64,000 bases of DNA from Ailanthus altissimus (Eukaryota > Streptophyta > Magnoliopsida > Sapindales > Simaroubaceae). The DNA lies in NCBI GenBank assembly GCA_946807835.1, contig OX327700.1, positions 22,542,001 to 22,606,000 of the forward strand. The letters are read 5' to 3'. Below, piece by piece: positions 2,990 through 40,080 of this stretch. A program made the translations under genes and the position numbers. The number at the start of each line of letters is the position of its first letter. Positions within the stretch are counted from its first letter, which is position 1. Under the pieces are notes generated by a model. It had not been told where the DNA came from, searched no databases, and saw nothing but the letters and a program-made list of their open reading frames with translations.

Positions 2990-4160
2990 TTAAATATCGT
3001 TCCTATAAGGACTATATGATCTAATTCTTTCAATCAAATGCTAAAATTATAATACTTAACTTTTATTCAGAAAAACTAAAATGTGATCAATCAATTAATC
3101 TAGTTATATAAAATTAAACTAAACCTAAATAACGAATAAACAAAGAGTTGAATTGACTAATTGATAATAATCTATGGCTTAAACTTATCTCTTAATATTT
3201 TATTGGATTCATTAACTTCTTAGTTAATCTCTAAATACAAATTAATTGGCTTAAATACTAATCTCATCACAAGCTTGTATTGATGGTCAAGTGACTATAT
3301 TATGCATTCTAACAACTACCTATATGTCTTTGGCAATTAGAATAGAATGTAATTCATTAAGATCAAGTCTAAATCTTACCATACATGTTATCTAGGTATA
3401 TGTTTATCCTACATGGAACTCATAGTTGTTATCCTATGACCATGCATCAAATTATCTTAGGCTAAACACATAAATCTTTTTGTCAAGGTCATTATGGTTC
3501 CTTAATCATTCAAAATATTGACCAAATATAATAAAAGTATTAAACATAAGATATAATGAATCAATTATATGTATTAAGTTAATAAACTAAGAGCTAGCAA
3601 AATTCAACTATATGCTAGGTTCAAAAGTTTAATCCTAGAAGTAAAAACTTAGGCTATGATGAAATAAAAAGTTATAGAGCTTATTAAGAATAACATAAAA
3701 ATCATCAAAAACTAGAAAGATAAAGAATTGAATAGATAAAATTAATTTTTCTGCAATCTTCAATCTTCTAGTCTTCTTGATATTCCAAAAATTGCTCTTT
3801 TTCTCTTTTTTCTTCCATCTCCTCTTGATTCTTTTAATTGGACTTTTTGATCTTCTATTTATAGGTTGAGATCTTCAATTTAAGATAAAATATCAAATAT
3901 AAGTCAGATTAAAATTACTATTCATGTAGCGCTATGGCGCTCATTTTTAGATGCTACAGTACTCGGCATTGTAGTAAATTATTGTAGCAATTTGATGTTT
4001 TTGTTTTATTTTCTTCGGGTTTTCATTCCCATTTACTCTATTGACTCAAAACTTACAAAATAACAATAAAAAAAATAAAAAAGTTAAATAATCTTAATTT
4101 AAATGAACAAATATTAAGTTTGAAAAATAAAAATATTAGACATAATTAACCCTTATTAGT
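2990..4160. repeat. LTR-like repeat remnant (solo LTR or similar), ends uncertain
   Basis: The stretch has the texture of a long plant LTR: a motif near 2998 (ATCGTTCCTATAAGGAC) resembling the conserved tcgwtcccacgagga word seen again at 10220-10245, long AT-rich sequence without frames, a pyrimidine tract at 3795-3840 and a TATA-like word (ctatttataggt) at 3858-3869. No target duplication or paired LTR was found, so both ends are approximate. Confidence 0.35.
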
Positions 4161-4266
4161 GATATAACTCCGATTTGCATTAATTTTATAGCCAATTGTT
4201 TAATTTCAAGTACATCTAGGCTGGAGGTCCATCATAATCTAATTTAAATGATGGAATCTAATTTGC

Positions 4267-4288
4267 ATATATATATATATATATATTA
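4267..4288. repeat. (AT)n microsatellite
   Basis: Eleven AT dinucleotides. A second AT run lies at about 4688-4712. Confidence 0.9.
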
Positions 4289-9447: not shown

Positions 9448-10117
9448 CATGAGAATATTGATTAAAATTATCGGAATATAATTTAAAGAATAAATTAAGT
9501 GTGTAGGGTATGTAAGAATTGAAGATAAATGCAAAAGAAAATGAAAGTCAAAGGCACGGTGCTCAGGTGTGGGTGCTGCGACAATAAGGTGCTGGGTGAC
9601 GCAACGCCTGAAACAGAACCTGAACGCCTCGGCACCAAAAGCCCATCGCCATGGCGCCCATCACAGGAAAGTGTTTCCTATTTTTTTGCTTCTTATTTTA
9701 TCTTCCTCTTACTTCAGGACTTCCTAATACGACTTTCACATATTTTGGGTAAACCTAAAACGTCTTAAAGCCTGCATAAAGGCTTTCTGTTGGCTTGTAA
9801 ACACATCTTATTAAAATTGAAGCGAGATCTTTGTAATCAAACATACTTTGTGATTCTTAGTGAGAGAAAATTCCTTAGTTGCAAGAGAGAGTATTTTTTT
9901 TATGAGTCTTTCTTGTAAAATACGTATTTTGTGAGTGCCTTGTGATTCAATAATAAGAGTGAGTGATCTTGATCCGCCGTAAACATAGGCAAGTTGCTGA
10001 ACTACGTATATTTTTATATGTTCTTTTTCTACCTTTCTCTCTCTTGAATTCCATAATTGCTTGTTTTGCACTATTTACTTGGGTGATATTGCTTGTTTGT
10101 GTGCTTCCGCTTCAATA
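9448..10117 (+). repeat. 5' LTR of the old copia element
   Basis: It aligns along its length with 25573-26176. The start CATGAGAATATT corresponds to TGTGAGAATATT in the 3' LTR, and the end TTCAATA to TTTAACA. It includes the GC-rich stretch full of GGTGCT/GGCACC words at about 9555-9665 and a promoter-like region. The short plus-strand frame at 9529-9768 lies inside it and is not a gene. Confidence 0.8.
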
Positions 10118-12949: not shown

Positions 12950-13710
12950 TGACATTTTAGACTGGCACACCTAGGCGAGAGAAACCTGAACGAGTTATTT
13001 AGTCAAAAGGCTTTTTGTGAGGATAGGTTTCAACCATTGGAGTTTTGTGAGCATTGTGTGCTTGGGAATACAAATAGGGTGAGGTTTAGTACCGAAAAGT
13101 ACATGACTAAGGGGACTCTTGATTACATATACTTGAATCTTGGGGACCAGTTCAGATAACTACTCGTGGAGGTGCCAAGTATTTTCTCAGTTTGATTAAT
13201 GACTATTCACAGAAGTTATGGGCCTATGTGTTAAAGTGCAAGGATCAAGTATTTAATGTGTTCAAGACTTGGAAGGCTCTTATTGAAAATAAAACTGGCA
13301 AAATGGTGAAGAGATTAAGAACTGACAACGACCTTGAGTTTTGCAATAGAGAGTTTGATAAGTTTTGTGCAAAGTATGGGATTATAAGGTATTGAACGGT
13401 AAGATTAACACCACAGCAGAACGACATAGCTGGGAGGATGAATAAGACCCTACTTTAAAGGGTTAGATGCATGCTTACCAATGCAAAGATGTCTAAGGCA
13501 TTTTTGGGACAAGCTATAGTGACTATAACTTATTTGATTAATAAAAGTTCCTCCCCAACAATTGACTTCAAGACGCTAAAAGAGAAATAGTGTGGCAATC
13601 TTCCTAAGTATGACTACTTCAGAATATTTGGTTGCTATGTCTTTATATATGATAAGGATGGAAAGTTGGAACCTAGAGCTATCAAATGAGTATTTATAGG
13701 ATATATTGAA
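12950..13710 (+). pseudogene. copia integrase region (broken; catalytic Glu lost)
   Basis: The GAG-pre-integrase zinc-binding text (AHLGERNLNELF, then CEHCVLGN) is readable at about 12965-13080. The integrase core follows: INDYSQKLWAYVL with the first Asp at 13192-13230, and RTDNDLEFCNREF with the second Asp near 13320. A stop falls after GIIRY. In the third catalytic block the usual NGVAERMN is NDIAGRMN, so the catalytic Glu is Gly. The enzyme is therefore dead by both truncation and an active-site change. Confidence 0.75.
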
Positions 13711-14880: not shown

Positions 14881-14918
14881 ATAGCAATATATACTCAAAA
14901 TTCTAGAGACATTTTGTA

Positions 14919-15191
14919 TATCCAATGCAAAAGTTGTCTCTACTTCTTTGGCCATGCATTTCAGATTTTCAACAGCACAGTTACCGACATCCAAAGAAGA
15001 GAAACTGCAGATGAGAAAAGTATCGTATGCAAGTGTTGTGGGGGAACATCATATATGTCCAATGCAAAGGTTGTGTCTACTCCTTTGGCTATGCATTTTA
15101 GATTTTCAGCAGCACAGTTACCGACATCCAAAGAGGAGAAACTGCAGATGAGAAAAGTATCGTATGCAAGTGTTGTGGGGAACATCATATA
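14919..15191 (+). repeat. Two tandem copies of a ~136-bp pol segment; a third lies at 24728-24863
   Basis: The stretch coding SNAKVVSTPLAMHFRF...MRKVSYASVVGNI, between the RT and RNase H regions, is present at 14919-15055 (137 bp) and 15056-15191 (136 bp). It recurs beyond the nested element at 24728-24863. The copies differ at several positions, so the triplication predates the nested insertion. Extra copies would shift or lengthen the polyprotein here. Confidence 0.85.
15187..15191. other. Target-site duplication ATATA, left copy
   Basis: It is identical to 24723-24727. Removing the element and one copy restores the context seen at 15042-15060 (AACATCATATATGTCC). Confidence 0.92.
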
Positions 15192-18041
15192 TGTCACGCC
15201 CCAGACCCAAAAGATCCGACACACGACATCACTTACATTCATTCACTGCATGTGCACTCATAAATAATATTACACAAAATTTACAACTTTTATTCAACAC
15301 AGAAATCCTTAGCAAGTTGCTAGTAAGTTCAACACTAAAATCAACCATAACCTAACATATAAATATAAACTTCTCTTGACAATATTTAAACATTCATTTC
15401 AATTTCTTTCAGAATTATAGCAATTGAATTATGACTGGGACAATTATTAAACCGGAGATACGCAGAGTTTTCTCAGAGATTAACACTCTACTACGTCACC
15501 AGTAGCAACTTTGTTACCGAGAGCCCAGAATATATCCATTGCAAATTCTTACTTAAAATCATCCAATAACCACACTTTATAAAACTTAAACCAAATCCAA
15601 TCCACACACAATGAAATAATACATAAGTATTTATTTAATAGGGACAAACCAAATATCCTATCCCACGTGTCCCCAAATGAAACACACAACAACCTAGCAA
15701 CTTAGGGAACCCAAGGAACAGCAGAAGCCTTGCCAAATCCGCTAAACACACATGTACCTTATTTACCTGAAATCACCATAAACTATAATGAGTATAAAAC
15801 TCAGTAAGCATACTAATTTTTCATATATCAAATACAAATACATATATGTACACAATGCATATGTATGATATGCTGTGATCAATCAAAATCATAATCTTAT
15901 CAAATCACATATCATGTAAGCGCTTACACATTCTTTCAAAACACATAATAGGAATACCATCACTCAACTACTACTTAGTAGGACTTACATATCACATATC
16001 ACATAATGAGCCAAATGTCACTCGTAGGTGACATACCGTATGAGAGGAATAGTACAAGTGAGGTCTTGAATAACACATATATAATGCTTGTGCCTGAAGG
16101 TAAAAGCCAAACCCTCACCCTGATCATCGGTGAGTCCTCTCACATGCACCAATACGCCACCACACGAATGTGATGACTCACTCTTCCTTTAGGTACCAAT
16201 AGGATCCTCCCTACATACGGAACACATAACATATACCAATCCCAAAGGAAAGGCCACACATAAAGGCTCCACAAATCACATAAAATGCCTACTAAGTTAA
16301 CAGTGAGTTCAAGTACCCTCAAAATACAAAATATTTCTCATGGACATATTACACTTCAAAAGCTTTCTTTATTAAACACATCTTATTTTGAAAGGTCACT
16401 TACAAAACACATGTATGTCCATGCTCAATGTCAATGCTCACATTCAGAAACATATATTCATATTTCATATCAAAATATACTTTGACATAACATAAACATA
16501 TTCTTAACCCCATTTGCAAAATCATACAAAACAATTACTATGTTTATTGTGATTTCAGTAAAAAGTCTAGTATACTTACCTCTTAACACTTTCAGCTACA
16601 AGGCTTAAATCTCCTTAACCTATCAATGGAGATTAATCCTTTCATAAGCCTCACAATTCACACAAAATACTTTAAATAGCTTACAAAATTATACACAATG
16701 CATTTATCACATCAAATTGGTCTAAATATTTGGTTTCTCAAAACCTGTCATTCTGACCACTTACACTTAACAAAAATTTCTAATACATCAAATGATGTCC
16801 AATTACTCCAAAATCAGAATATATCATTCTTGACTCATATATACTTCTTATATATGAATATTATATCAAGATTCCTACACAATCCATTCCATACGCACCA
16901 TCGAATCCAAACTACAAACCTGACAGGATCAAGATACTTACTGAACAGTATTCAATCTCCCAATTTTATAAAATCATATACTAACTCAAAAATTATAAAA
17001 CTACCACATAATTACTCTTGACACATATCTCAGTCCATTATAAATATTTGGATTCCAAATAACTGCCAAAAGTATTTTAAAACTATTTTATTTCATAACT
17101 TTAAAAATCTGTTAATCAAATACTACAATGAGCTGATACACTTTAGAAATTCATAACACTTCAACCACATTGATCCAAATTTTCAATTCCGAGTATATCA
17201 TATTAGACATATAAAATTATCATATTCCACAAATTCATAATTTTTAAAGATCATTCAGCAGGTCAAAAATTATTTTCCACTATATCATACTGTTTACACA
17301 GGAAATTTCCAGAATTCCAGGGTCATTTTGGTAAATTCACTACAAATTCAATTTCCGAGATTTTCAGTCGATTCAAAGTCTCAGATGATCCTAAACATGT
17401 CTAATTTCATATACTCAAAATTCAAAACCAGAATCGAATCACAACAATTTATAAATTTCCTAGATCAAGAGGTTATCCAGCAGAAATTCCATAATTCATC
17501 ATGATTTATCAAACTATCTTATAGATCATCATCAATTCTCACAACATCAAACGAAATACACATCAAATCCTTAATTATACATATTTCCAGAAATAAAAAC
17601 TTAAAGAAATTAACTTAATTAACACCAATAAATTGATAATTAGTTGTGATATACCTCTAAAGATCCAAAATTCCAATTTCTTCTTCTTTTTCTTCTTTTT
17701 CTTCTCTTTCTCTCTCCTTTATTTCTCTCTTCTCTCTCTAAAAATGGGTAGCTCGACCAAAATGAGAGAATTAGGGTTTTTAAAAGTGTATTTTTATACT
17801 AAGTGGTTAATTTTTGGTATTTACGAATTCACCCCCAAAACTTTCAAAGTATAACAATTTGGTCCCTAAAATAATTCCAAAGTCTTGCAAATAAACCCAA
17901 TACTAATAGTATATCCTTAACCTATAAAAACACTACTAATAACAATATATAAATCAAGGATCACCCACATACAAATAAAATACGTATATTTATATATATA
18001 AATATACATATTCTTACCGATTATGGATACTGGTTACTACA
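15192..18041 (-). repeat. 3' LTR of the young element (left copy)
   Basis: 2,850 bp, starting TGTCACGCCCC and ending GGTTACTACA on the plus strand. It carries a CT-rich tract at about 17677-17740. Short frames inside (16140-16322, 16285-16485, 16698-17021, 17633-17854) are exactly repeated in the other LTR and are not genes. Confidence 0.95.
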
Positions 18042-18055
18042 ATTCTCCCCTCCTT
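18042..18055 (-). other. Polypurine tract
   Basis: The minus strand reads AAGGAGGGGAGAAT directly before the 3' LTR, the expected place for plus-strand DNA priming. Next to it, 18060-18079 is a near-palindrome with arms GAATTTCG and CGAAATTC. Confidence 0.88.
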
Positions 18056-18079
18056 ATAAGAATTTCGTCCTCGAAATTC

Positions 18080-18860
18080 ATAACTTAAGCACATAGATGA
18101 GGATACTTAGATCTCATTTCTTCTTCTCATTCTCAATTTTCCTTTTCAACTGTATAGTTTATTCATAAAACATTTACAAAGCAATCTTCCTTGTATATAG
18201 GATTTGCTCATTGTGGTCCAAAATCCTAATAAATACTCATTCATATGTTAGATTATCTCTAAGTTGGCTTATAGCTGAGTATACGAGAGGAGTACGAAAC
18301 ATATATCCATAAAATAAACATATGACACACATTATGGACTTATAAAATTATACACACATATTTTTATTCTTTTTTCCCATTCGTTCAATATTTAATGGGT
18401 ATCTATACACTTCACCTTTCATTCATTAAAGAATAACATAGATGTAGAATACCCATACTAATCTCTTATATAAAATTCTTAACTCCTTTAAAAATTTTAA
18501 TCCCTTCAACATATACTCATACGTCATAATATCATTCACTACCTTGATATCATTCAAAAAAAAAATGTAGTATTTCTACGCAACTAAGTTGTCATTCAAA
18601 TCAGAATATTGAAAGCATTATCTTAAACGATCAAAAATCAACTTCAATAAAAAGACCTTTAGTTCAACTGATTCTTAAACTATAGATCTTAACATTATAT
18701 CTCTTACTTTAACTCTTAAAAAAAATAGTCCACCTTATTGGACATCATTTTCTCATTGAGATTGACATGTCTGCTTTTTCTAATATGCTCGATTTCAAAT
18801 AGAAAAGATTCTACTAGCACAATTATTGCGATGGCAAATATGATTCTTTTAACTATTCCT
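18080..18860. other. Non-coding interior of the young element
   Basis: AT-rich sequence with no long frame on either strand. It holds no recognisable pol remnant apart from the terminal words by the polypurine tract. This space may be the residue of the lost gag-pol side or the 5' flank of the downstream gene. Confidence 0.5.
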
Positions 18861-18863
18861 TTA

Positions 18864-18929
18864 ACGTCATCCACGTAAAAGGAAAGGACAAAACGATTAT
18901 TGATTTTCTTTCATAAAACTCTATAAATA
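18864..18929 (+). promoter_or_regulatory. Likely promoter of the 397-codon gene
   Basis: A TATA box (TATAAATA, 18922-18929) lies 63 bases before the ATG. About 50 bases further upstream, ACGTCATCCACGT (18864-18876) contains two ACGT cores and an inverted TGACG, the core bound by plant bZIP factors in as-1-type elements. The layout is what a Pol II promoter would look like; activity is inferred. Confidence 0.5.
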
Positions 18930-18991
18930 GCCTAAACCTCATAATCACTTTTCTAGCAATAAATAAAACCAACCTTCTTACCATCTTCATA

Positions 18992-20185
18992 ATGAATCCC
19001 ATTATCATAACTCCTCCTGTTCCTTTTTCTCCACCACAATTTCCAGACCTAATCAAAACCAGAACACTTCATTCCCGTGCCAAAGAATTCATCAGACACT
19101 ACGCCATCTTAGCAGTCCAAAAACACGGCCTCACAGTTCTTGGTGGCCCTTTGTTCAACTTAGAATACCCTTTCTTTCACCTGCACTCTTTTTTCCCATT
19201 TTCCCAATGGTCCAAACCTGTCCTTTACTTGTTATGGTACCTGTTGGATCTGTATACAATCGCCATGGAATTCCCATTACTTAGAACCCTCCAAAAATTA
19301 GAAAAATGTGATGAAGATCATCCAGCCCTGATTTTTCTCCAATGGTTTTACCCAAAGACATGGTGGATAACTAAATTTCAATACATGATTGCAAACAACA
19401 CAAATGCTGCAGTCCCCAGACAACATCTTTGGTCAGTCTTACTTCTCCAACGGAAGAGTATGATTATTTCAGATCACGAGATTCATTATTACCCCACTGT
19501 TAAGGATTACTTCACATTTACCCTTTCACTAAAGGGATCAATTAAGCTCTGGCCTGAAGAAGTAATTCAGCAAAAGAGAGAACTTGAAAGAATTCTTGCT
19601 CAGGAAAATCAAATAATTCCTCCGTCTGTTTGGATCTCCCCAGAAGATGCTGCACCTTGGGAACAAGTTGAAGCTGACTTTACAGAAGACTTGAATTTTG
19701 CCAATATACTCAAATTCCAACAAAGACAAAAATATCATCTTTCACATCTCAGAAATACAGATTACTCTACTCATCATCACCATATCCCAAACATGACTTA
19801 TTATGCCAGGTACAGACAAGCAATAGATAACCTTCACCAATGGCCTCAGCTAACTGTCCCGACAGAACCTACCCAATCTCAGCCAGTTGTCCCGACAGAA
19901 CCTACTCAATCTCAGCCAGTTGTCCCGACAGAACTTGACCAACACCAACCCAATCTTGACTTATCCCTCTTTCAAGACTCCCAACCTTATCCAACCGACA
20001 CCCAAATCCAAGAGGAAGCCAGCACATCCCTCATCCAGACCAGCTCACCTGGAGAAGATCAAGATATGGTAGACCCACATTCCACTCCGCCAGAGCCCTC
20101 ATTCAATGTATGGGAACAACAACTTCATAAGTTCCTCTCTCACGGATACGACACAGATGAAAGCGACCAAGGAGACTCATTTTGA
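18992..20185 (+). CDS. Unrecognised 397-residue protein carried by the LTR element
   Basis: A single uninterrupted ATG-to-TGA frame, antisense to the element, and the longest in the window. I do not recognise the family. Residues 1-20 are proline-rich. Residues about 60-130 are rich in aromatic and hydrophobic residues (LFNLEYPFFHLHSFFPF, then PVLYLLWYLLDLY). Residues about 130-240 contain several Trp-bearing blocks (FYPKTWWITKFQYMI, HLWSVLLLQRK) and acidic patches. A histidine cluster (THHHHI) follows near 262-267. The C-terminal third is low-complexity, P/Q/T/S-rich, with a 12-residue unit (VPTEPTQSQPV) repeated two to three times, and ends acidic. No zinc finger, protease or polymerase motif is visible. 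A TATA box and an AATAAA signal frame it. It could be an extra ORF as known in some plant Ty3 elements, a captured host gene, or derived from a pararetrovirus; none of these is established. Confidence 0.75.
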   Translation: MNPIIITPPVPFSPPQFPDLIKTRTLHSRAKEFIRHYAILAVQKHGLTVLGGPLFNLEYPFFHLHSFFPFSQWSKPVLYLLWYLLDLYTIAMEFPLLRTLQKLEKCDEDHPALIFLQWFYPKTWWITKFQYMIANNTNAAVPRQHLWSVLLLQRKSMIISDHEIHYYPTVKDYFTFTLSLKGSIKLWPEEVIQQKRELERILAQENQIIPPSVWISPEDAAPWEQVEADFTEDLNFANILKFQQRQKYHLSHLRNTDYSTHHHHIPNMTYYARYRQAIDNLHQWPQLTVPTEPTQSQPVVPTEPTQSQPVVPTELDQHQPNLDLSLFQDSQPYPTDTQIQEEASTSLIQTSSPGEDQDMVDPHSTPPEPSFNVWEQQLHKFLSHGYDTDESDQGDSF

Positions 20186-20356
20186 CCTACATTGTTGTTT
20201 CTATTTTCACAGAAACTAGATCCGTGTTGCTCTATCACATCAAAGAGAGACTGATTACTGCTTTATCTTTATGTCAAGTGTGCTTTATCTTTCTTCATAT
20301 CTGCTTTTAATCTATCGGCCAAAAATTAATGTTAAGACCACAAAATCTTTGTAATT

Positions 20357-20362
20357 AATAAA
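20357..20362 (+). terminator. Poly(A) signal AATAAA after the 397-codon gene
   Basis: It lies about 170 bases after the stop codon, with T-rich sequence upstream and a GT/T-containing stretch downstream. Confidence 0.5.
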
Positions 20363-20700
20363 TTTAATTTGGCCTCATGTCCAAAGTCCAATTGTTAGCT
20401 CAAAAAGTCTTCAAGTCATTGATGCATTGTTGGCCATTAGTGCCAAAACGGCTAAGTCCCTAAATCCATGAAATAGGCCTTTATTGACTTTTCTTAATTA
20501 TCTTACCTAACTTATCACGCTTCTGACACAATTTTTATCACACTTACATATCAACATATATTTATTCAAGATTTTGCGACCTATTGTCCCTTATAAAATG
20601 ATAAAATAAAACTCATTCCTTTTTTTTTTGTTTTACCTCACAAGAATCGAGAAAAATATATACTTGAACATACTTACACATATGCTCCACAGCTATTATC
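20363..20700. other. Spacer between the two cargo genes
   Basis: About 340 bases without frames, probably including the 5' flank of the LOG gene. A T-run lies at 20621-20629. Confidence 0.5.
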
Positions 20701-20712
20701 AATTTGTTTCTC

Positions 20713-20720
20713 TATAAATA
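20713..20720 (+). promoter_or_regulatory. TATA box of the LOG-type gene
   Basis: TATAAATA lies 60 bases before the chosen ATG, with the same CTCTATAAATA context as the upstream gene. This would put transcription start near 20745-20750 and give a leader of roughly 30 bases. Confidence 0.6.
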
Positions 20721-20780
20721 CATTATTATTGCATCCTTATACAAACTCAAAAATATTCAAAGATTAGGGTGAGCATAACA

Positions 20781-21434
20781 ATGGAGGAAACCTCAGCTCG
20801 TCGATTCACAAAAATTTGTGTCTTTTGTGGATCCAACCCTGGGAATACTGAAGAGTTTACAAAAGTTGCAGAAAATCTTGGTAAGGTATTAGCTGAGCGA
20901 AATATACATTTAGTATATGGAGGAGGTAATCGAAGGTTAATGGGGTCTGTGGCAAAAGCTGCACACAATAAAAGTAGTCGAGTTTTGGGTATCATTCCAA
21001 AACCTCTAGCTATTAAAAATGTTGTAGGAAAAACAATTGGGGATGAGTTACAAGTCTCATCTATGCACGAGCGAATGGCTCAAATGCTTAGGCATGCAGA
21101 TGCTTTCATAGCTCTACCAGGAGGTTTCGGGACCTTGGAGGAAATTTTTCAAATTGTCTCATGGGCACAATTACAAATCCACCAAAAACCTATTGGTTTG
21201 TTAAATGTTAATGGTTTTTACGACGGGTTGATATCTTTTCTTGACTATGCAGCGGGAACACAATTCATCCCACTTCTAGCACGACGGATTCTTATTTCAG
21301 CTCCAACTGTTGATCAACTGATTGATCAATTGCAGTCTTTTATTCCTCTGTCTAATCCAACATTGCATCAGTTAGATTGGTCTACTCATGACAGTCAGAA
21401 GAAGCGCAAAATAGACTTAAATCTCACTCCGTAG
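20781..21434 (+). CDS. LOG-like: LOG-type cytokinin riboside 5'-monophosphate phosphoribohydrolase, intronless, inside an LTR element
   Basis: LOG enzymes release active free-base cytokinin by cutting ribose 5-phosphate from cytokinin nucleotides, in cytosol and nucleus. The protein is 217 residues from the ATG at 20781, close to the usual LOG length. An in-frame GTG at 20769 is not a plausible plant start. Visible motifs: ICVFCGSNPG near the N-terminus, VYGGG at 45-49, the Arg-bearing MHERM at 95-99, and the signature PGGFGTLEE at 113-121 with its catalytic Glu. SWAQL-IH-KPIGLLNVNGFYDGL follows. The usual GGGSIGLMG is GGGNRRLMG here, so the nucleotide-binding loop is unusual. The frame is complete, with no introns, whereas plant LOG genes normally have several. 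It is antisense to the host element and has its own TATA box and poly(A) signal. The family call is firm; activity is untested. Confidence 0.93.
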   Translation: MEETSARRFTKICVFCGSNPGNTEEFTKVAENLGKVLAERNIHLVYGGGNRRLMGSVAKAAHNKSSRVLGIIPKPLAIKNVVGKTIGDELQVSSMHERMAQMLRHADAFIALPGGFGTLEEIFQIVSWAQLQIHQKPIGLLNVNGFYDGLISFLDYAAGTQFIPLLARRILISAPTVDQLIDQLQSFIPLSNPTLHQLDWSTHDSQKKRKIDLNLTP

Positions 21435-21480
21435 CCTCTACTGTATTTTTGTTGCTGCTATTGTTGTTGTTTTCCTTTTC

Positions 21481-21486
21481 AATAAA
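21481..21486 (+). terminator. Poly(A) signal AATAAA after the LOG-type gene
   Basis: It lies 46 bases after the stop, with a T/G-rich stretch (ttgttgctgctattgttgttg) just upstream. Confidence 0.6.
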
Positions 21487-21852
21487 AGTTGTTTCAATTG
21501 ATGTCTTCAATACTCTACTTCTCTATATTTTGTCATTGAGAAAATTATCTCAATTTACTCTATGACATGCAAATTATCATTATAAGATATTCAACATCAC
21601 TCTTACTAAGCATATGAGTCATAACTTAAAAAAAAAATCTAAATAGTAACATTAAGATCCACAAGGTACCATTATCCACAACAACAACAATCTTAGCAGC
21701 TCTTGGATAATGTGTCATCTTCACAAAATCATACAAAAATTAAGGAATATGTCAAACTTTTACACAACAAAGCTACAAATACAATCCTAAGGATTTGGCA
21801 TCTGCTCGGTTCCCTTGACTCGACACTTAAAAGTCTACAGAATCATATCTTA
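21487..21852. other. Element leader between the LOG gene and the primer-binding site
   Basis: About 370 bases that would be the element's own 5' leader when read on the minus strand. No packaging signal can be identified by eye. Confidence 0.5.
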
Positions 21853-21864
21853 GCTCTGATACCA
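21853..21864 (-). other. Primer-binding site for initiator tRNA-Met
   Basis: The minus strand reads TGGTATCAGAGC, a perfect match to the usual plant site, eight bases inside the 5' LTR. It fixes the element's orientation as minus. Confidence 0.93.
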
Positions 21865-21872
21865 ATAAAAGC

Positions 21873-24722
21873 TGTCACGCCCCAGACCCAAAAGATCCGA
21901 CACACGACATCACTTACATTCATTCACTGCATGTGCACTCATAAATAATATTACACAAAATTTACAACTTTTATTCAACACAGAAATCCTTAGCAAGTTG
22001 CTAGTAAGTTCAACACTAAAATCAACCATAACCTAACATATAAATATAAACTTCTCTTGACAATATTTAAACATTCATTTCAATTTCTTTCAGAATTATA
22101 GCAATTGAATTATGACTGGGACAATTATTAAACCGGAGATACGCAGAGTTTTCTCAGAGATTAACACTCTACTACGTCACCAGTAGCAACTTTGTTACCG
22201 AGAGCCCAGAATATATCCATTGCAAATTCTTACTTAAAATCATCCAATAACCACACTTTATAAAACTTAAACCAAATCCAATCCACACACAATGAAATAA
22301 TACATAAGTATTTATTTAATAGGGACAAACCAAATATCCTATCCCACGTGTCCCCAAATGAAACACACAACAACCTAGCAACTTAGGGAACCCAAGGAAC
22401 AGCAGAAGCCTTGCCAAATCCGCTAAACACACATGTACCTTATTTACCTGAAATCACCATAAACTATAATGAGTATAAAACTCAGTAAGCATACTAATTT
22501 TTCATATATCAAATACAAATACATATATGTACACAATGCATATGTATGATATGCTGTGATCAATCAAAATCATAATCTTATCAAATCACATATCATGTAA
22601 GCGCTTACACATTCTTTCAAAACACATAATAGGAATACCATCACTCAACTACTACTTAGTAGGACTTACATATCACATATCACATAATGAGCCAAATGTC
22701 ACTCGTAGGTGACATACCGTATGAGAGGAATAGTACAAGTGAGGTCTTGAATAACACATATATAATGCTTGTGCCTGAAGGTAAAAGCCAAACCCTCACC
22801 CTGATCATCGGTGAGTCCTCTCACATGCACCAATACGCCACCACACGAATGTGATGACTCACTCTTCCTTTAGGTACCAATAGGATCCTCCCTACATACG
22901 GAACACATAACATATACCAATCCCAAAGGAAAGGCCACACATAAAGGCTCCACAAATCACATAAAATGCCTACTAAGTTAACAGTGAGTTCAAGTACCCT
23001 CAAAATACAAAATATTTCTCATGGACATATTACACTTCAAAAGCTTTCTTTATTAAACACATCTTATTTTGAAAGGTCACTTACAAAACACATGTATGTC
23101 CATGCTCAATGTCAATGCTCACATTCAGAAACATATATTCATATTTCATATCAAAATATACTTTGACATAACATAAACATATTCTTAACCCCATTTGCAA
23201 AATCATACAAAACAATTACTATGTTTATTGTGATTTCAGTAAAAAGTCTAGTATACTTACCTCTTAACACTTTCAGCTACAAGGCTTAAATCTCCTTAAC
23301 CTATCAATGGAGATTAATCCTTTCATAAGCCTCACAATTCACACAAAATACTTTAAATAGCTTACAAAATTATACACAATGCATTTATCACATCAAATTG
23401 GTCTAAATATTTGGTTTCTCAAAACCTGTCATTCTGACCACTTACACTTAACAAAAATTTCTAATACATCAAATGATGTCCAATTACTCCAAAATCAGAA
23501 TATATCATTCTTGACTCATATATACTTCTTATATATGAATATTATATCAAGATTCCTACACAATCCATTCCATACGCACCATCGAATCCAAACTACAAAC
23601 CTGACAGGATCAAGATACTTACTGAACAGTATTCAATCTCCCAATTTTATAAAATCATATACTAACTCAAAAATTATAAAACTACCACATAATTACTCTT
23701 GACACATATCTCAGTCCATTATAAATATTTGGATTCCAAATAACTGCCAAAAGTATTTTAAAACTATTTTATTTCATAACTTTAAAAATCTGTTAATCAA
23801 ATACTACAATGAGCTGATACACTTTAGAAATTCATAACACTTCAACCACATTGATCCAAATTTTCAATTCCGAGTATATCATATTAGACATATAAAATTA
23901 TCATATTCCACAAATTCATAATTTTTAAAGATCATTCAGCAGGTCAAAAATTATTTTCCACTATATCATACTGTTTACACAGGAAATTTCCAGAATTCCA
24001 GGGTCATTTTGGTAAATTCACTACAAATTCAATTTCCGAGATTTTCAGTCGATTCAAAGTCTCAGATGATCCTAAACATGTCTAATTTCATATACTCAAA
24101 ATTCAAAACCAGAATCGAATCACAACAATTTATAAATTTCCTAGATCAAGAGGTTATCCAGCAGAAATTCCATAATTCATCATGATTTATCAAACTATCT
24201 TATAGATCATCATCAATTCTCACAACATCAAACGAAATACACATCAAATCCTTAATTATACATATTTCCAGAAATAAAAACTTAAAGAAATTAACTTAAT
24301 TAACACCAATAAATTGATAATTAGTTGTGATATACCTCTAAAGATCCAAAATTCCAATTTCTTCTTCTTTTTCTTCTTTTTCTTCTCTTTCTCTCTCCTT
24401 TATTTCTCTCTTCTCTCTCTAAAAATGGGTAGCTCGACCAAAATGAGAGAATTAGGGTTTTTAAAAGTGTATTTTTATACTAAGTGGTTAATTTTTGGTA
24501 TTTACGAATTCACCCCCAAAACTTTCAAAGTATAACAATTTGGTCCCTAAAATAATTCCAAAGTCTTGCAAATAAACCCAATACTAATAGTATATCCTTA
24601 ACCTATAAAAACACTACTAATAACAATATATAAATCAAGGATCACCCACATACAAATAAAATACGTATATTTATATATATAAATATACATATTCTTACCG
24701 ATTATGGATACTGGTTACTACA
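21873..24722 (-). repeat. 5' LTR of the young element (right copy)
   Basis: 2,850 bp with the same ends as 15192-18041 and no indel between them. Because the element is on the minus strand, this copy would hold the active promoter, transcribing leftward across LOG and the 397-codon gene in antisense. Confidence 0.95.
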
Positions 24723-24727
24723 ATATA
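24723..24727. other. Target-site duplication ATATA, right copy
   Basis: It matches 15187-15191 and directly abuts the TACTACA end of the right LTR. Confidence 0.92.
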
Positions 24728-25530
24728 TGTCCAATGCAAATGTTGTCTCTAGTCCTTTAGTCACGCATTTTAGATTTTTAGCAACACAGTTATCGACATC
24801 CAAAGAGGAGCAACTGCGGATGAGAAAAGTACCGTATGCAAGTGTTATGGGGAACATCATGTATGCAATGGTTTACATAAGACCAGAAATAGCACAGGCT
24901 GTGAGTGTGATAAGTAGATACATGGCAAATCCGGGTAAGGATCACTTGCTTATAGTGAAGTGGATTTTGAGATATCTCAAGGGGACGTCAATTCACAGGT
25001 TAATATATAAAAGGGATGAGGACAACAGTAAAATAGTAAAAGAATACGTAGACTCAGATTATGTAGGTGATCTAAACAAGAGAAGATCGTTAACGGGTTA
25101 CGTATTTACAGTGTTTGGGTGTAGTGTGTATTGGAGATCAGTTCTAAAACATGTGGTTGCACTATCTGCTACAGAGGCAGAGTACATAGTTGTTGGTGAA
25201 GCTATTAAGGAGGCTGTGTGGTTGAAAGGCATATGCGCGGAGGTATTAGCTAGTGAAGATGTGAACACTAGTGTATATTATGATAGCCAGATTGCCATAC
25301 ACTTAAGCAAGCATCAAGTGTTCCACGAGAGGTCGAAACACATTGATGTGCGGCTCCACTACATTTTAGAGATTGTCTAAAGTGGTGAAATTAGTCTAAC
25401 GAAAATAGCGTCGTCTAAAATCTTTGCTGACATATTGGCTAAGCCATGGCCCTCGGTTAAGTTCATCCTATGCAAAGACTTAACCGAAGTCAGTACTTTG
25501 TGAAGGTGATCGAAGATGCGGAGATGAGAA
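24727..25530 (+). pseudogene. copia RNase H region, separated from its pol by the nested insertion
   Basis: An open stretch of 217 codons (24727-25380) has copia RNase H features: MVYIRPEIAQAVSVISRYM, HLLIVKWILRYLKGT, VDSDYVGDLNKRRSLTGYVF with the first catalytic Asp, the Glu of SATEAEY, and YYDSQIAIHLSKHQVFHERSKHIDVRLHYI. It ends at a stop at 25378, and remaining terminal text (IFADILAKPWP, 25420-25455) continues after it. It cannot be expressed as part of pol because 9.5 kb separates it from the RT, and upstream stops already disabled the frame. Confidence 0.85.
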
Positions 25531-38944: not shown

Positions 38945-40080
38945 GACCTCGTAGATAAGGATTACGCTCGTAAAGACCTTGTGTGTAGTGTCCCGAGCTC
39001 TACCAAAGGTTAAGGAATATGAAGACTTTATACGAGAGGTCTTGAGCCCTCCTATAAGTAGTTTAAGTCCTTATGCGTGAGGTCTCGAGCCCTGCCATAA
39101 GTCAAAATTTATTAAGACCTTATGCAGAAGGTCTTGAGCCCTTCAATAAGTAGTTCAAGTCCTTATGTGTGGGGTTCTGAACTCTACCATAAGTTAAAAT
39201 TCATCAAGACTTTATGTGGGGGATCTCGAGCCTTTTCATAAGTAGTTTAAGTCCTTATATGTGAGGTCTTAATCCCTGCTATAAGTTGAAATTCATCAAG
39301 AACTTATGTAAAGAGTCTTGGGCCCTTCCATTAGTAGTTTAAGTCTTTATACGTAGGGTCCTAAGTCTTGCCATAAGTTGAAATTCATCAAAACCTTATG
39401 CAAGGGGTCTCAAGCCCTTCCATAAGTTGAAGTCCTTATGCGTGAGGTTCTGAGCTGTGCCATAAATTAAAATTCATCAAGACCTTATGCAAGGGGTCCT
39501 AAACCTTTCCATAAGTAATTCAAGATTTATGCTTAGGGTCCCGAGCATTACTATAAGTTAAAATTCATCAAGACCTTATGTGAGAGGTCCTTATGCATGA
39601 GAGCTCTACAATAAGAAATTATCAAAGCCCTATGTGTAGAGTTCCAAGCCTAACTGTAGGTAAGAAATTACCAAAACCATGCACATACATAGAGTTCTAA
39701 GCTCTACCATAAGTAAGAAATTAACAAAACCATGTGCATAGAGTTCTAAGCTCCACTGCAACTAAGAAATTACCAAAACTATGCACGTGGAGTCTCGAGC
39801 TCTGCAGTGGGCAAGAAAGTATCATAGCCCTACCCATGGAGTCTTGAGCCCCACCGTAGGCAAGCAATCACTTAAGCCTTACTTGTGAAGTCTCAAGCCC
39901 TACCGTAGGTGAGAAATTACCAAGGACTCCCACGTGGAATCCCAAGCTCCACCGTAAGTGAAAACATTGTCGAAACCCTATGGATGAAGTCCCGAGCTCT
40001 ATCGCAAAGTATTATCCTAAGCAAAAAGATCCGGTGTGTAGAGCTATAGGCTCTAACACCTATTGAAATCATCCCAAGCA
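38945..40080. repeat. Tandem-repeat field, 92-bp higher-order period
   Basis: The word AAGTCCTTATGYGTGAGG recurs at 39065, 39157, 39249, 39341 and 39430, giving a 92-bp period made of two related half-units of about 45 bp (CCTTATG..., GGTCTYGAGCCCT, YCATAAGT). From about 39590 the units become shorter (about 55-65 bp) and diverge (AAGAAATTACCAAAACCATG, TAGAGTTCTAAGCTC). A last relic is beyond the solo LTR at 42593-42685. Internal tandem repeats next to the 3' LTR are a known feature of Tat/Ogre elements. Confidence 0.8.

Follow-up and report, generated by a model that had tools for sequence, protein, structure and literature searches.

A LOG-like gene carried by two families of long terminal repeat retrotransposons in Ailanthus altissimus

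Results

The element and its antisense genes

The DNA analysed here is a 64,000-nucleotide stretch of contig OX327700.1 of Ailanthus altissimus (hereafter the window). It was found that a long terminal repeat (LTR) retrotransposon at positions 15192-24722 of the window carries a gene resembling those of the cytokinin-activating LOG enzymes. This element serves as the reference copy for a family designated A. Its target site duplication (TSD), primer binding site (PBS), polypurine tract (PPT), open reading frames (ORFs) and other parts are as follows.

15187..15191, no strand: left TSD, ATATA, from sequence comparison of the flanks
15192..18041, minus (the sense strand): 3′ LTR, 2850 bp
18042..18055, minus: PPT AAGGAGGGGAGAAT, directly before the 3′ LTR
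18042..18161, minus: possible relic of a chromovirus pol 3′ end, minus-frame translation ...EEEMRSKYPHLCA, stop, VMNFEDEILIRRGE
18922..18929, plus: TATA box TATAAATA, 70 bp before the ORF397 start, a putative promoter
18992..20185, plus: ORF397, an open frame of 397 codons of no known family, antisense to the element
20710..21554, plus: LOG cassette (TATA box, 5′ leader, ORF and 3′ part with AATAAA), from alignment to L112, a copy of the second family described below
20713..20720, plus: TATA box TATAAATA, 68 bp before the LOG start, aligning with TATAAATA in L112
20781..21434, plus: LOG-like gene, 217 codons, intron-less (Pfam PF03641, 132 bits)
21481..21486, plus: AATAAA after the LOG stop codon, aligning with AATAAA in L112
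21853..21864, minus: PBS TGGTATCAGAGC, 8 nt from the LTR
21873..24722, minus: 5′ LTR, 2850 bp
24723..24727, no strand: right TSD, ATATA, from the same comparison

With its TG...CA-ended LTRs (TGT...ACA), TSD, PBS and PPT, the element is a non-autonomous LTR retrotransposon. The two LTRs are identical (0/2850 mismatches), which by a rough hand computation, assuming 1.3e-8 substitutions per site per year, puts the age at less than about 40,000 years. An earlier note on this DNA had given the same coordinates and the same LTR pair, TSD, PBS and PPT, all of which proved correct. Since the PBS, which occurs only once in the whole window, and the PPT are on the minus strand, the right-hand LTR is the 5′ LTR and the sense strand of the element is the minus strand. 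LOG and ORF397 are on the plus strand and run antisense to the element. The earlier note mentioned neither this orientation nor ORF397, the copia-like tandem-repeat target, and the second, pol-bearing family with the same gene.

No gag-pol frame was found in the interior, where the sense frames were judged by length alone and not by a Pfam or profile scan, and to this extent the earlier note was right about its absence. The longest stop-free sense runs have 110, 71 and 67 codons, while the longest run in 500 shuffles has a mean of 103 and a maximum of 205 codons. ORF397 and LOG are contained in two stop-free runs of the plus strand, of 422 and 238 codons, both longer than the shuffle maximum. 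The TATAAATA TATA box occurs only twice on the plus strand of the interior, once before each of the two genes. No Rfam match was found in the element, and the LTR and pol-end patterns gave 0 matches in viral contigs.

No pol remains in the window element. The PBS presumably fits tRNA-Met, and I take the minus-frame relic to resemble Tekay-type pol ends. The long LTR, the tRNA-Met-type PBS and the short pol-like relic may suggest the Tekay clade (Ty3 chromovirus) for family A.

Active-site residues of the LOG-like protein

The LOG frame also matches TIGR00730 and is homologous to LOG proteins over its whole length, AtLOG3 being the closest solved structure. The PGGFGTLEE motif (of the PGGxGTxxE type) and the catalytic Arg and Glu are present, as described for the LOG phosphoribohydrolases AtLOG3, CgLOG and CgLOGII (PMC4979012, PMC5379747). 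The element LOGs differ from these enzymes in that they are intron-less, are borne by retroelements, and have the substrate Lys and the pocket Glu replaced. When the frame was compared with 19 other LOGs (15 microbial loci and four PDB rows), 19 of the 23 invariant residues were found to be kept and four lost; leave-one-out controls lose 0 to 3. Two of the lost residues are Lys99 and Glu124, the equivalents of which are present in all 19 comparison LOGs. They correspond to CgLOG Lys100, in the adenine site, and CgLOG Glu125, part of a proposed prenyl pocket (PMC4979012). In CgLOGII, the change of the equivalent Lys (Lys156Ala) was reported to abolish all activity (PMC5379747).

These changes are shared by all 21 element copies compared in this study (11 of family A, including the window copy, and 10 of family B). 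Position 99 is Met in family A and Ile in family B, so that no copy has Lys, and position 124 is Gln throughout, while Arg98, Glu121 and Trp128 are kept in 21/21. In 11 further homologues, mostly of phages, Lys is present without exception. The earlier note had spoken of a complete LOG cytokinin-activating gene. The frame is indeed complete, but the activity is put in question by the Lys to Met and Glu to Gln changes in 11/11 family A copies. As judged from the adenine-site Lys and the prenyl-pocket Glu, the element LOG would not count among the cytokinin-activating LOG enzymes. Gly52Arg was at first considered part of an altered motif and was rejected, as the other copies show this change to be private to the window copy.

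Copies of family A

The source genome (939 Mb) was searched with PF03641, which gave 4943 first-look candidates, and 150 of them were scored. All 150 are above the cut-off and stop-free inside the matched domain stretch. By eye, 63 are of the window's type (match range 1-131) and 87 end at 130. The window locus is absent from the scored 150, so further copies exist. Twenty copies were hand-picked from the top of the score-ranked list and fetched: L114-L123 of the A type and L104-L113 of the B type.

In all ten fetched A copies, ORF397, LOG, PBS and LTR occur in the same order, although L116 is rearranged. Left flanks were fetched for nine of these loci, and eight have a perfect 5-bp TSD of their own, all different (ctaat, tactt, cctag, gcttc, tgtta, cccgc, catga and taagg). 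L121 has two LTR-like starts, of which the TSD fits one. At the ninth locus, L123, no left end was recognisable. The LTR pairs are 98.4-100% identical over the parts covered, except for L116. Compared with the window LTR, nine of the ten copies differ by about 2.5-8%, and L116 by up to 12%. LOG is stop-free in 11/11 A copies, the window copy included. These results support the view that family A is a repeated, young, non-autonomous LTR family that spreads a LOG gene. The earlier note had supposed such a family and had suggested looking for copies elsewhere with their own TSDs; this supposition is borne out by the shared LTR, PBS and LOG in 10/10 copies and by the TSDs in 8/9.

Some LOG matches lie in pairs about 6.6 kb apart (C5:4492104/4498654, C27:1871214/1877794 and C17:26112258/26118874). 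This spacing is as would be expected of tandem LTR-internal-LTR-internal-LTR arrays.

ORF397 has no match in Pfam, NCBIfam, PDB, plasmids, viral contigs or prokaryote contigs, and its single-sequence fold was useless (mean pLDDT 37.8). It has a tblastn match in all ten fetched A copies, and its longest open run is at least 346 codons in six of them and 183-221 codons in four. Thus, ORF397 is less well kept than LOG across the A copies. A tandem repeat of 33 bp lies within it at 19855-19934. A fragment with 48.6% identity to ORF397 was found in the B locus L106 (oriented 9633-9959), past the end of that B element.

A second, Athila-like family with the same gene

The window LTR was found in none of the ten B loci (L104-L113). 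Over long stretches, L108 shares 97.4-98.6% identity with the other nine, in one case over the right part only. The B-type LOG is in sense orientation, and in L108 the pol domains lie upstream of it on the same strand in the order aspartyl protease, RVT_1, RNase H, H2C2 and rve, which is a Ty3-order pol; the protease match (21 bits) is below its cut-off of 24.3. Between pol and LOG, and also on the LOG strand, there is another frame, which lies at the same place in the other B loci:

L108 oriented 3700-4281 (raw L108:5710-6291, minus): viral NABP-like ORF, PF05515

In the one copy scanned, this frame matches PF05515 Viral_NABP with 35.4 bits (cut-off 23) and, more weakly and below the cut-off, PF01623 (a carlavirus family). 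It is stop-free in 8/10 B copies, one of which lacks an ATG. This ORF may possibly reflect gene exchange between plant viruses and retroelements, and I presume that it might act as a silencing suppressor.

The ends of a B element were defined in one copy, L105, extended to the left by the stretch L133. Its LTRs measure 1438 bp and differ at one position, and the TSD is TATGA. The PBS after this LTR is, I assume, of the Athila kind, which would suggest the Athila lineage for family B. From 449 bp past the LTR, an open frame of 673 codons reaches the edge towards pol. A 2674-bp LTR starting after a purine-rich site had been considered and was rejected, since the matching 5′ LTR and TSD give 1438 bp. 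In L112 (oriented ~8139), the 3′ LTR is followed at once by a PBS of the Athila type, which points to a tandem or nested arrangement. LOG is stop-free in 9/10 B copies. A 41-base B LOG probe with up to three mismatches hit 707 genomic places, and the reversed control hit 0.

A cassette common to the two families

The window element and L112 share a stretch from the TATA box to about 70 bp past the AATAAA, in which 690 of 899 aligned columns (77%) are identical. Outside this cassette, the window sequence 20501-21872 has only a 35-bp AT-rich match to L112. Likewise, when four further B loci (L096, L097, L100 and L103, 3.4 kb each) were compared with the whole window interior, the cassette stretch alone was aligned. 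The cassette is antisense to the element in family A and in the sense orientation in family B. The similarity fits a transfer of a promoter-ORF-terminator module between element lineages.

Substitutions between the families were counted by the NG86 method (11 A and 10 B sequences, 110 pairs), giving nonsynonymous (dN) and synonymous (dS) values of 0.149 and 0.490 and a ratio of 0.305. A codon bootstrap of one A-B pair gave 0.196-0.469. Thus, the A and B LOG frames differ mostly at synonymous sites, and there is constraint between the families. Within family A, dN/dS is 0.283 (55 pairs).

Host LOG genes and the origin of the element LOG

A motif search for canonical host LOGs, in which the Lys was required, gave 15 loci, L134-L148, which were examined within 3024-bp stretches, several being cut off by the stretch end. 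In these loci, the match to AtLOG3 is broken or has insertions near residues 40, 72, 83, 116, 140 and 187, while L145 lacks some of the breaks (116-203 is uninterrupted). Glu is found at the position of 124 in all 14 loci in which the exon is covered. Peanut LOGs are described as having two to six introns (PMC13257298) and eggplant SmLOG1 as having seven exons (PMC11226868). The element LOGs are uninterrupted at all host break points and are thus probably derived from RNA. Some host loci form very similar pairs across contigs, such as L134/L137 on C9/C17 and L139/L141 on C18/C19, which suggests a past genome duplication.

The element LOGs are 45-55% identical to host LOGs. In a tree that took in eight of the 15 host loci, four of them incomplete, the element LOGs form one clade (100/99) beside all the host and Arabidopsis LOGs used (93/98). 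This position outside the host LOGs may be due to long-branch attraction, of which the tree tool warns. A viral or bacterial origin was considered and rejected, as matches in phages, plasmids, prokaryote contigs and viral contigs are below 47% identity and the trees group the element LOGs with plant LOGs.

Discussion

A probable retuned accessory gene

I consider it likely, as a whole, that a LOG module was captured and retuned and is an accessory gene in at least two LTR families, expressed from its own promoter. A retroelement would have acquired a processed LOG transcript in a single, ancient event, and the module of promoter, ORF and terminator would later have passed between element lineages. 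LOG would be expressed from its own TATA-box promoter (antisense in family A), while family A would be copied in trans by an autonomous element with a matching LTR and PBS, for which the earlier note had thought of a related Ty3 element. Hydrolysis of a nucleoside monophosphate has most likely been retained by the protein, given the conserved catalytic residues Arg98 and Glu121. As its base pocket is putatively retuned (Lys99 to Met or Ile, Glu124 to Gln), the protein probably uses a different nucleotide as its substrate or forms pairs with a host LOG. The outcome might be an altered purine or cytokinin supply in the cells where the element multiplies, to the benefit of the element. Thus, going by its residues, the element LOG is probably a retuned accessory enzyme and not a plain cytokinin activator. 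It may further be supposed, more tentatively and with rather more doubt than belief, that it is an old, element-specific lineage derived from LOG, the module of which was swapped between LTR families, in one of which it lies beside a nucleic-acid-binding gene resembling those of plant viruses, and was favoured by selection for shifting the nucleotide or cytokinin metabolism of the host to the elements' advantage.

Several observations weigh against this explanation. Within family B, dN/dS is 0.93 (45 pairs, about five changes per pair), so no constraint is detectable on recent B copies, and the B copy L106 carries a stop in LOG. The picking of copies by score biases both the intactness and the within-group dN of the fetched copies. 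Part of the A-B divergence could predate capture if two related host genes were captured separately; genes of this kind would have escaped the host search, which asked for the canonical motif with the Lys. The window LOG has three private changes, two of which (52 and 65) are near or after the glycine-rich loop. Position 124 varies in distant homologues (Glu in six and Gln in two of the ten with a letter there), so that Gln124 alone is no proof of lost function and the Lys change is the stronger argument.

Comparison with known systems

Large retrotransposon derivatives (LARDs) resemble the window element in their long LTRs, PBS, PPT and lack of gag-pol. Their interiors are classically non-coding, unlike that of the window element.

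It is known that plant Ty3 elements can have extra ORFs, also in antisense orientation, and that one orchid family carries an active N6-methyladenosine (m6A) demethylase (PMC7264820, PMC11963269, PMC9289625). The antisense ORFs (aORF-3R) include gene23 of Grande, RIRE2 and TRP28 of Retand (PMC7264820, PMC11963269), and they are described as running antisense to gag-pol and as being kept in most copies, the one in Grande having a promoter of its own. Ty3 membership aside, family A has the same arrangement, its frames being antisense to the element and both LOG and ORF397 being matched in 10/10 copies. In contrast, the aORF-3R proteins are described as nuclear, DNA-binding or of unknown kind, LOG not being named in these accounts, and the window element lacks gag-pol. 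The orchid Ty3/Gypsy elements carry an ALKBH5-like m6A demethylase (PMC9289625), which is another case of an LTR element that maintains an enzyme gene of host type as an accessory ORF. As reported, however, that gene belongs to one family and retains its cofactor residues and in-vitro activity, whereas the element LOG, a processed gene, is found in two families, has a TATA box of its own and is altered in the pocket. Maize Bs1 and the rice and sorghum genes captured by LTR elements (PMC13317346, PMC3726574) also represent host gene sequence in LTR elements. According to these descriptions, the Bs1 segments were without full-length ORFs, while the element LOG is a whole frame in two families and constrained between them. 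The word cytokinin has no occurrence in the main text of these two papers. Among the literature matches listed, which are the smaller part of all matches and in which subscription journals are largely absent, no title or abstract opening concerns a LOG gene in a retrotransposon.

Other explanations

It is conceivable, if rather unlikely, that the element protein works mainly by pairing with a host LOG, so that a subunit with Gln124 would blunt or shift host cytokinin activation; this overlaps with the explanation preferred above, which also allows pairing. LOGs of this type are dimers (PMC4979012, PMC5379747), and the CgLOG pocket residues Glu125 and Trp129 are described as supplied by the neighbouring subunit (PMC4979012). 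In line with this, the window copy keeps 19/23 invariant positions while its pocket residues are changed. On the other hand, an identity of 45-55% to host LOGs may prevent pairing.

I regard it as improbable that LOG is a functionless retrogene, trapped by chance and multiplied merely along with the elements. The replaced active-site residues, the private changes of the window copy, the L106 stop and the ratio of about 0.93 within family B would all suit such a passenger. Moreover, when the window frame was left to drift until 4/23 invariant residues had changed, it was still open in 165/1000 runs. An attempt to exclude neutral decay from the window copy alone was given up as weak for this reason, and the A-B comparison was used instead. 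The A-B ratio of 0.30 argues against a passenger, as do the retention of the cassette by two families and the TATA box and polyadenylation signal common to both. In addition, a simulation in which the window frame drifted neutrally down to 50% protein identity, indels being excluded, left it open in only 1/300 runs.

Slightly less probable still is the view of the earlier note that LOG is plain cargo, an ordinary cytokinin-activating enzyme whose spread raises LOG dosage. The PGGFGTLEE motif, the catalytic Arg and Glu and the full-length similarity to AtLOG3 are kept, as this view would have it. However, plain cytokinin activation is less likely because Lys99 is replaced in 21/21 copies, the equivalent CgLOGII change to Ala having abolished activity in that report (PMC5379747). 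Glu124, of the proposed prenyl pocket (PMC4979012), is likewise Gln in 21/21. Both residues are found in 19/19 comparison LOGs, and the further homologues have Lys in 11/11 and Glu in 6/10.

An assembly artefact, in which the LTR pair or the LOG copies were collapsed or duplicated, would account for the exactly identical window LTRs but is highly improbable, since the copies are scattered over many contigs, their TSDs and flanks differ, and their LTRs are about 2.5-8% off that of the window in 9/10 A copies (up to 12% in the rearranged L116).

Significance

Most accessory genes of plant retrotransposons lack known biochemistry, while the element LOG derives from a well-characterised enzyme. 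As it is kept between two families and altered at named pocket residues, its function is directly assayable. Should the element LOG act on cytokinin or on nucleotides related to it, this would mean that retroelements manipulate a host hormone pathway; if not, it would be an example of the reuse of an enzyme scaffold by mobile DNA. A selected lineage of LOG modules, if true, would be a hormone-pathway accessory gene of retrotransposons. In addition, hundreds of element LOG copies could mislead LOG gene-family annotation.

The insertion site and other features of the window

The window element was inserted at about a unit boundary of a tandem triplication:

14914..15191, plus: insertion target, formed by two 137-bp units of a tandem repeat whose third unit goes on at 24723-24865

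When the flanks are joined at one TSD copy, the third 137-bp unit is continuous. The repeat appears to sit inside a degenerate copia-like element (rve at 13123-13392, the flank being read by eye); a copia gag match is below its cut-off. Elsewhere in the window, short units form an imperfect tandem array at 38973-39644, and a minus-strand frame at 55658-56110 matches the start of peptidase S28 (PF05577) and is perhaps part of a host gene.

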